From Luteolibacter ambystomatis (GTDB lineage Bacteria > Verrucomicrobiota > Verrucomicrobiia > Verrucomicrobiales > Akkermansiaceae), in NCBI RefSeq assembly GCF_018137965.1, contig NZ_CP073100.1, positions 3,297,754 to 3,361,753 on the forward strand: a DNA stretch of 64,000 bases, given 5' to 3'. Position 1 is the stretch's first letter. Each line of letters opens with the position of its first letter. This document shows positions 26,844 to 54,801 of the stretch, one piece after another. Position numbers and translations under genes: made by a program. The notes beneath the pieces were generated by a model that saw only the letters and a program-made list of their open reading frames with translations, made no database searches and had not been told where the DNA came from.

Positions 26844-26918
26844 TGGCACGGCAGGTAGGACTCGAACCTACAACACCCGGTTTTGGAGACCGGTGCTCTA
26901 CCATTGAACTACTGCCGT
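26844..26918 (-). tRNA. trnW: tRNA-Trp (CCA anticodon)
   Basis: 75 nt including an encoded 3' CCA. Acceptor arm ACGGCAG (26912-26918) pairs with CTGCCGT (26848-26854), discriminator G. The anticodon loop CTCCAAA gives anticodon CCA at 26884-26886, read on the minus strand. D arm AGTTCAATGGTAGAGC and T arm GGTTCGAGTCC are standard. It lies between tuf and secE, a common location. Confidence 0.96.
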
Positions 26919-52924: not shown

Positions 52925-53983
52925 TCACGCTCCCTGGCCGGGAATCAAGCCCCCCTTCGCCTCCAGATAGCTGCGGACCGCAGCCACACGGTTCTCCACG
53001 CCGAAACGCTGGAACACGGCTTCCAGATGCTTCTCCACCGTGCGCGGGCTGATCTCAAGAATGATGGCCACCTCGGCGCTGGTCTTGCCCTCGGCAATCC
53101 AGTCCATGATGTCGCACTGGCGGCGGGTCAGCATCGGCACAGTACCTCCTCCGGAGATCTGGCGTGGCGGCGGAGCAAAGTAGATGATGATATTCCCCTC
53201 CGGCCGGGCAAGGGCACCAATGCGGACCAAGCCGCCACCGAGATCCAGATCCAGTTCCGCCCATTGGGCATCCACCGGACTGGACCACGAAGCCGTGATC
53301 GCCTTGTTGAGCGCCTCGATCATTTCCGGGGCAAGCGCATGCTCCACCTCATCCTTTTCCCAGCAGGAATCGGCGTAGGAAACCGCCCCGGGATTATAGG
53401 GAATGACCACGTCACCCCTGAGCATGAAGACGGCATTCGTCGTCTCCTTGCGGGAGTGCATGAGACGGTCCAGCACGCTGCGCTCGTAGTTCGCATCCAG
53501 CAGGCGGGAAAGCACGCTGCGCGCGACGAGCACGGCGGCCTGAAGACGTTCGCGTTCGTCGGTATCGAAAATGCTGTCCTTCTTGATGACGGCCATGCTG
53601 CCGGAGCGGAACCGGCCGCGGATGAGGCGGGCGCCGATGATGTCGGAGCAGCCGATCTGCTTCAGCCATTCGGCCACATCCGGTGCCTCGCGGAGCTCGC
53701 CGCCGGTGAGCGCCGTGCAGAGCACCGAGGAATCATCCGGGAACCGGCGGTCATGCTCGGATATCCATCCACGGACTCCTTCGAGATCCTGCCGGAGTGT
53801 CTCCGCCACCGGCCCCTCACCCACCACGCGGACCACCGAAAGGTCGGTCGCGAAATCGAAAAGCACCACCTCGGCGGCGCCAATCAGCTTACGGATGCGG
53901 CCGAAGAGCAAATCCGAGACCTGACCGTAGCTGGATGCCTTCACCAGCTCGTGGCCGGCCTCAAAGAAAGATTCACCAAGCAT
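52925..53983 (-). CDS. LuxR-type transcriptional regulator with GAF-like N-terminus
   Basis: 352 residues from ATG 53981-53983; a GTG at 54058 gives 377 but leaves no room for a divergent promoter. The C-terminal helix-turn-helix is LTRRQCDIMDWIAEGKTSAEVAIILEISPRTVEKHLEAVFQRFGVENR, complete with the GKT and VEKH elements. The N-terminal ~250 residues look GAF/PAS-like with an LxF pattern (VVLFDFATDLSVVRVVGEG); there is no receiver Asp, so it senses a ligand rather than a kinase. Target genes unknown; the divergent leader ORF is a candidate. Confidence 0.85.
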   Translation of the reverse strand: MLGESFFEAGHELVKASSYGQVSDLLFGRIRKLIGAAEVVLFDFATDLSVVRVVGEGPVAETLRQDLEGVRGWISEHDRRFPDDSSVLCTALTGGELREAPDVAEWLKQIGCSDIIGARLIRGRFRSGSMAVIKKDSIFDTDERERLQAAVLVARSVLSRLLDANYERSVLDRLMHSRKETTNAVFMLRGDVVIPYNPGAVSYADSCWEKDEVEHALAPEMIEALNKAITASWSSPVDAQWAELDLDLGGGLVRIGALARPEGNIIIYFAPPPRQISGGGTVPMLTRRQCDIMDWIAEGKTSAEVAIILEISPRTVEKHLEAVFQRFGVENRVAAVRSYLEAKGGLIPGQGA

Positions 53984-54060
53984 TTTGCAAAGTTCTATGC
54001 CGCTGGATGGACCATCTGTCAAACCTTGCTCTACGAAGAAATACGCAAGTAGGAACACGA

Positions 54061-54129
54061 ATGGCTAAAACGTCCGTTTGGTGGCAGTTTCGTCACGTCA
54101 CCGCAAGTGGCGCCAGTTGCTGGCGGTGA
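54061..54129 (+). CDS. 22-codon leader ORF rich in Trp codons
   Basis: ATG at 54061 has an AGGA six bases upstream, the right Shine-Dalgarno spacing. The ORF encodes MAKTSVWWQFRH then VTASGASCWR: three Trp codons, a tandem TGG-TGG at codons 7-8 and one at codon 21 just before the stop. The last codons lie in a hairpin (CGCCAG/CTGGCG, 54111-54125). A strong terminator begins 17 bases after the stop. The layout is that of an amino-acid leader peptide, as in trp operon attenuators. The only gene downstream is a pseudouridine synthase. Expression is unproven. Confidence 0.55.
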   Translation: MAKTSVWWQFRHVTASGASCWR

Positions 54130-54145
54130 TGTTTTCTTTGGGGGA

Positions 54146-54181
54146 GATGGCCCGTTGGTTCGCCAACGGGCCATCGTTTTT
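54146..54181 (+). terminator. Strong intrinsic terminator after the leader ORF
   Basis: GATGGCCCGTTGG (54146-54158), tetraloop TTCG, CCAACGGGCCATC (54163-54175), then GTTTTT: a perfect 13-base stem with a UUCG loop and U-tract. No large gene on the plus strand ends before it, so it terminates the leader transcript or regulates the pseudouridine synthase. Confidence 0.88.
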
Positions 54182-54231
54182 CGCGGGCCGCCTTGCCGCG
54201 GGTGCGATGGAAGACTAGCACGGATGCGCAT

Positions 54232-54801
54232 ATGCTGCTCGCCTTTTTCAAGCCTTACGGAGTGCTGACCCAATTCACACTGGACCAACCCGGCCAGCGG
54301 ACTTTGGCGGATTTTGGATTCCCGCAGCGGGTGTATCCGCTGGGACGCCTCGACATGGATTCGGAGGGTCTCCTGCTGCTGAGCGATGAAGCGGGCATGA
54401 ACAGCAAGCTCCTCGATCCCGAGGCCGGCCATCCCCGCACCTACCTCGCCGAAGTGGAAGGAATCCCGACCCGCGAGGCCCTGCAAACCTTGCGCAAGGG
54501 CGGCATCGATCTCAAAGGGCACCGCACCCGTGCGTGTGATGCCCGGCTGCTGGAATCCTCTCCCGATCTGCCGCCGCGCGATCCACCGGTGCGCTTCCGC
54601 AAATCGGTGCCAACCTCCTGGCTGGAACTGACGCTCACGGAGGGAAAAAACCGCCAGGTGCGGCGTATGACCGCTGCTGTCGGATTTCCCACACTGCGAC
54701 TGGTGCGGGTGGCCATAGGCAAGCTCCGGCTCGGAGAAATGGAACCGGGCACCTGGCATGAACTGGCGTCTGCCGATCGCGATCTGATCTGGAAACGGTG
54801 A
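54232..54801 (+). CDS. RluE/RsuA-type pseudouridine synthase
   Basis: 189 residues from ATG 54232. LAFFKPYGVLTQFT and the catalytic Asp in YPLGRLDMDSEGLLLLSDE match the RsuA/RluB/E group; LELTLTEGKNRQVRRMTAAVGFPTLRLVRVAIG closes it. No S4 domain, as in RluE. Isomerises uridine in 23S or 16S rRNA. It lies 50 bases after the strong terminator, so read-through from the leader could control it. Confidence 0.9.
   Translation: MLLAFFKPYGVLTQFTLDQPGQRTLADFGFPQRVYPLGRLDMDSEGLLLLSDEAGMNSKLLDPEAGHPRTYLAEVEGIPTREALQTLRKGGIDLKGHRTRACDARLLESSPDLPPRDPPVRFRKSVPTSWLELTLTEGKNRQVRRMTAAVGFPTLRLVRVAIGKLRLGEMEPGTWHELASADRDLIWKR

Follow-up and report, generated by a model that had tools for sequence, protein, structure and literature searches.

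The window, the whole 64,000-nt stretch of Luteolibacter ambystomatis DNA analysed here, contains a short ORF with tandem Trp codons, a hairpin and a terminator, all within positions 54061–54181 of the plus strand. To the left of this element lies luxR (52925–53983, minus strand, with its start at 53983), which encodes a LuxR-type regulator of 352 aa with a GerE domain. To the right, on the strand of the element and 57 nt past the terminator stem, lies an rluE-like gene for a 23S pseudouridine synthase (54232–54801, plus strand; TIGR00093 over cut-off, and PF00849). The best named model for its product is RluE, though the match falls below that model's own cut-off.

The ORF runs from an ATG at 54061 to a TGA at 54129 and encodes the 22-residue peptide MAKTSVWWQFRHVTASGASCWR. 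As the initial annotation had read from the sequence, it is preceded by a Shine-Dalgarno motif (AGGA, ending 6 nt upstream of the ATG) and has TGG codons at positions 7 and 8, with a third at position 21 near the stop. A stem-loop of 9 + 6 pairs (54095–54132) overlaps the end of the ORF and is followed by an intrinsic terminator with a 13-bp stem, a UUCG loop and a U-tract (54146–54181, of which 54146–54175 form the stem-loop, then UUUUU), also as first described; the spacer between stop codon and terminator stem measures 16 bases and not 17. A less well supported predicted hairpin at 54055–54082 includes the start codon. No Trp gene follows, the next gene being the pseudouridine synthase. An Rfam scan of the window returned two tRNAs elsewhere and nothing else, and in the scan of the element's own locus there was no match at E ≤ 1 and the gathering score of a known family was not reached. 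A tRNA-Trp(CCA) gene is found at 26844–26918 (minus strand), 27 kb from the ORF, with no sign of a link between the two.

When 260 family genomes were searched at the DNA level, a single true homologue emerged, in the relative G181 (89% identity over 206 nt). Matches at E ≤ 0.1 occurred in 43 of the 260 genomes, and only the organism's own genome and G181 were accepted: the 18 other loci that we fetched are chance matches, with 23–30% identity in register outside an 18–37-nt match, and rows beyond the fetched loci were judged by scores alone. The window and G181 are 77.1% identical across the 13,968 bases aligned in this region, and third codon positions agree at 50% in rluE and 56% in luxR. 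The 135-nt block 54047–54181 has an identity of 0.911, a value reached by 1.1% of 13,432 alignment windows, which average 0.771 (sd 0.082); the other top-identity windows fall in long ORFs. Within the block, 54130–54147 is identical in both genomes. Strong conservation ends at the terminator, as identity falls to 66% in the 56 nt between the terminator and rluE. Thus, judged from one pairwise comparison between two carrier species, the 135-nt element is under selection, its 91% identity standing well above the local mean of 77%.

Does this conservation reflect a separate product? The terminator could simply shield rluE from antisense or stray transcription of luxR, while the stretch upstream would be a luxR operator. 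The 22 codons do form the 3′ part of a longer, mechanically called open frame (53797–54129) that extends antisense through luxR, and 53985–54061 is 87% identical to G181, a conservation upstream of 54061 that may serve luxR instead of an RNA. However, the stretch from ORF start to terminator is also conserved, up to the invariant 54130–54147, which an insulator would not need, and the terminator is missing from relatives in which the flanking genes are the same. The longer frame contains a 1-nt deletion in G181. We consider an insulator with no product of its own quite unlikely.

Conservation in G181 and a stable predicted fold (z = -4.58) mark 54061–54181 as a candidate small RNA gene of ~121 nt, with an uncertain 5′ end. 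When 151 nt were folded, the z-score was -4.36 and none of 200 shuffles was equally stable; the RNA minus its terminator is not unusually stable (z = -1.26). Comparison with G181 leaves all 8 pairs of the 5′ hairpin and all 15 pairs of the middle stem-loop unchanged. Two pairs of the terminator are compensatory, both switched between U-A and C-G, and every uncompensated change falls in an unpaired column of the structure used, a structure derived from these same two sequences. In a shuffle control, the observed compensation was reached in 105 of 500 cases, a weak result with two rows. The pairing pattern thus gives mild support to conservation as RNA. Two unpaired stretches are conserved as well, namely the loop of the 5′ hairpin and 54133–54145.

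A covariance model built from the two sequences found the element in the same two of 73 genus genomes. Four of the 73 had matches at E ≤ 1, at four places besides the element itself. A match in G190 (1.8e-4) and a second place in the organism's own genome (0.0056) lie at the terminator, a match in G003 is to the middle hairpin (E > 0.01), and the fourth place is likewise weaker; none of these was taken as a further copy. A scan for the pseudouridine synthase in named genomes gave the best 80 of 569 relatives, with a top identity of 70%, and the covariance model run on nine of those 80 loci (L072–L080) had one match, at E = 0.41.

The open frame itself is retained in G181 (MAKTGVWCHFRHVTDSGASCWR), with start, stop and AGGA in place and 18 of 22 residues identical. 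An RNA that in addition encodes a selected 22-aa peptide as a second product would account for this, and 5 of the 8 substitutions in the ORF, which affect 6 codons, are at third positions. That excess is slight (P = 0.09), however, and 4 of the 6 altered codons change the residue (S5G, W8C, Q9H, A15D), W8C and A15D non-conservatively; W7 and W21 are retained. Silent positions of the ORF are conserved too, which points to a constraint on RNA or DNA, and a Pfam search of the peptide gave no family match. A peptide search returned something at E ≤ 10 in 22 of 39 genomes, with a best E of 0.04 outside the window; from the E-values and 19 other loci viewed, we judged these other matches to be chance. 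The comparison between window and G181 leaves selection on the peptide undecided, and we regard a second, selected peptide product as rather unlikely. A second ORF (54130–54216, plus strand), whose ATG comes immediately after the first stop (TGATG) and which reads through the terminator, was set aside because inspection by eye showed a frameshift in the G181 counterpart.

The Trp codons had been the reason to propose a Trp-responsive device, either attenuating rluE in cis or acting in trans like rnTrpL. The window ORF does have its tandem Trp codons, and the order of ORF, hairpin and terminator is that of the ribosome-mediated trpL-trpE attenuator. When 53985–54231 was shuffled 5000 times, 0.08% of the shuffles gave a Shine-Dalgarno-preceded tandem-Trp ORF, a figure that overstates the surprise, as these features were picked after being seen; any Shine-Dalgarno-preceded short ORF arose in 6.3% of the same shuffles. 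The 64 kb hold one other ORF of the tandem-Trp kind. In G181, the tandem pair is lost because W8 is Cys, so that of the Trp codons expected to be conserved in relatives only the first and the third persist there, within the open frame.

Sensing by a stalled ribosome also calls for an alternative fold. The initial annotation had pointed to a near-complementarity between the stretch around the first Trp codon, TCCGTTTGG, and the 3′ arm of the terminator, CCAACGGG. By eye, this complementarity exists in the window, as 7 pairs round a bulged U, and is weaker in G181, where the counterpart has 6 pairs, one of them G-U. We modelled equilibrium folding in both species, with the RNA free or with a ribosome at codons 7, 8, 20, 21 or 22. 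The mean pairing probability of the terminator stayed at 0.82–1.00 in all modelled states (lowest in G181 with a ribosome at codon 8), so the modelled ribosome does not displace it, and no antiterminator was predicted in the window or in G181. Forcing the 5′ arm of the terminator to pair upstream or to remain unpaired costs 13 kcal/mol in the window (-51.0 versus -64.3).

There is, moreover, no adjacent trp gene. The organism's own trpE match (L151) lies 712 kb into the genome (~0.71 Mb), the window at 3.30–3.36 Mb, and the 600 nt before trpE contain no ORF of 8–60 codons with two or more Trp; the element thus has no recognised local trp leader as the source of the displacement that had been suggested. 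Two minus-strand matches below the family cut-off, L152 and L153, were left out of this reading. Unlike for the trpL-trpE attenuator, no mutually exclusive fold was found for the element, and it has no amino-acid gene and no preserved Trp run. The rnTrpL RNA of Sinorhizobium meliloti is described as beginning with the ATG of its ORF (PMC7298713). The element resembles rnTrpL/peTrpL as a short terminated RNA with a Trp-containing ORF, whose candidate promoter would likewise start it at the ATG, but it has no trp gene downstream, has not kept its tandem Trp and has no predicted antiterminator, and trpE is without a Trp-rich leader ORF. Of the rnTrpL-like proposal, therefore, a selected, terminated, stand-alone RNA fits our data and the Trp part is not supported; a Trp-responsive attenuator of either kind is highly improbable. 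The case shows that an ORF rich in Trp and placed like a leader ahead of a terminator can mislead, since a single relative sufficed to drop the tandem Trp.

How might the RNA and its neighbours be transcribed? By consensus reading, luxR is preceded on the minus strand by a promoter-like pair at 53994–54022, with a -35 box TTGACA (54022–54017), a 17-nt spacer and a -10 box CATAGA (53999–53994). This pair, TTGACA-N17-CATAG[AC], is kept at the same spacing in the organism's own genome and G181 (CATAGA) and in G002 (CATAGC). On the opposite strand, 54026–54055 holds a candidate promoter for the RNA (TTGCTC, an 18-nt spacer, TAGGAA), a weak sigma-70 match that is kept in G181 as TTGCGC-N18-TAGGAA and absent from G002. 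The -35 boxes of the two divergent sites are 3 nt apart. From a promoter of the form TTGC[TG]C-N18-TAGGAA, transcription would begin at the ATG of the ORF or right next to it. An RNA beginning at 54061 would have a truncated 5′ hairpin (54055–54082), so either this promoter or this hairpin must be wrong or secondary. A sigma-E-like GGAAC box was also considered and dropped, its partner not being kept in G181, by eye.

A third promoter-like pair (TTGCCG, a 17-nt spacer, TAGCAC; 54193–54221, plus strand) follows the terminator and ends 10 nt short of the rluE start codon. In the form TTG[CT]CG-N17-TA[AG]CAC, it is found 9–10 nt upstream of that codon in all four genomes of the lineage: the organism's own, G181, G002 and G024. 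In shuffles, the loose pattern occurred at 2.6% and the strict one at 0.0015%. Of 31 rluE upstream regions, 6 have TTGnCn-N17-TAnnnn ending 9–10 nt upstream of the gene, 3 have the pattern elsewhere and 22 lack it; besides the four lineage genomes, L029 and L032 carry TTGTCA-N17-TAT equally far from rluE. The position of the pattern suggests that the rluE mRNA is nearly leaderless. A standard promoter scan lists no promoter at the locus, and the -10 boxes are poor sigma-70 matches, so the promoter argument rests on conserved position. Start sites have reportedly been mapped in Akkermansia (PMC4782308).

Two of the four genomes with the rluE pair, G002 and G024, are without the RNA. Only four of 73 genus genomes have luxR: it is full-length in the window, in G181 (75%) and in G002 (56%), and a fragment in G012 that stops at a contig end and is uninformative on the element. 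G002 shares the luxR and rluE neighbourhood, and G024 shares the region before rluE, its contig ending before luxR. In neither did we find the element, by covariance model or by inspection of the sequences, and the G002 interval has no terminator and no excess folding (z = 0.47). Because the rluE pair is downstream of the terminator and occurs both in genomes that have the RNA and in genomes that lack it, rluE probably does not need the RNA, which also speaks against the proposed Trp-responsive switch for rRNA modification.

The same observations bear on the possibility that the element is a regulated-termination leader that senses a signal other than Trp, with the terminator being bypassed so that the transcript continues into rluE. 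Leaders of this type can evolve fast. The rluE gene is on the same strand just 57 nt past the terminator stem, and a kinetic switch would be compatible with the equilibrium folding result. However, the terminator holds its pairing (0.82–1.00) in every modelled state, rluE has a promoter-like sequence of its own past the terminator, identity falls to 66% directly after the terminator, and in relatives rluE occurs with no leader of this kind before it. A leader of rluE is in our view improbable.

The neighbourhood of rluE yielded another structured RNA candidate, outside the window. At a threshold of E ≤ 0.01, a search of 73 genus genomes detected it in 14 (L159–L172, for example L159:1461–1640, plus strand), which include neither the organism's own genome nor G181; it is also visible in G009 (L025:1240–1500), below the search threshold. 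Its place relative to rluE was determined in eight of the 14: in seven (G049, G041, G044, G001, G013, G020 and G011) it sits immediately 3′ of that gene and on the other strand, and in G016 the two are on different contigs. Of the 12 pairs in its GC-rich hairpin, 4 are changed on both sides and 9 are broken or gapped in at least one sequence. Five carrier loci scanned with Rfam gave no match at E ≤ 1.

At the locus itself, we favour an independent, terminated small RNA gene of ~120 nt that is divergent from the LuxR-type regulator gene and precedes rluE, a reading to which we give a probability of roughly 60%. Comparison supports part of it, as judged from aligned genomes: the selected block, the compensated terminator, and promoter-like luxR and rluE sites that are kept with or without the RNA. 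We searched the organism's own genome and G181 for the usual protein partners of such RNAs. Hfq (TIGR02383) had no match at E ≤ 0.01 in either (0/2); as a control, the same model matched in 5 of 14 named genomes, so it works and absence is common. CsrA (PF02599) likewise had no match at E ≤ 0.01 in the two genomes, and CsrA titration was discarded as a function on this ground. The lack of matches to both removes the usual sRNA partners and counts against the small RNA reading.

What would the RNA do? Transcribed from the site at 54026–54055, and probably under control of the neighbouring LuxR protein, it would be ended by its own terminator before rluE and might act in trans on mRNAs through the 5′ hairpin loop and 54133–54145, without Hfq. 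Base-pairing in trans is a tentative proposal, which we hold with less than even confidence. The ORF may also be translated, in which case its start codon would stand at the 5′ end of the RNA or close to it. The full combination, a lineage-specific dual-function RNA that is leaderless at its AUG, encodes the 22-aa peptide and acts in trans without detectable Hfq or CsrA, is distinctly improbable.

In enteric bacteria, sgrR is divergent from sgrS. SgrS is described as a small RNA encoded beside a gene for a transcription factor; the intergenic region is conserved, and the RNA has a Rho-independent terminator, an extra stem-loop ahead of that terminator and a small ORF (PMC4021124). The arrangement in L. 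ambystomatis is similar, with regulator gene, conserved intergenic region, small ORF, stem-loop and terminator, here read from sequence. The likeness drawn here is one of layout; unlike at SgrS, the regulator is of the LuxR and not the SgrR type, and no Hfq was found. The element is not placed in the SgrS family, as the searches of the two genomes found no Hfq and no CsrA.

A search of the open literature on Luteolibacter and small RNA returned no paper on the subject by title. If real, the element would be a small RNA that is compact and open to testing, in a genus where we found no such papers and in genomes where neither Hfq nor CsrA is detected. The small RNA gene would have been gained or lost between two older promoters, those of luxR and rluE. 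That some genomes have the RNA between these two promoter-like sites and others have the same sites without it suggests that the gain or loss was recent.
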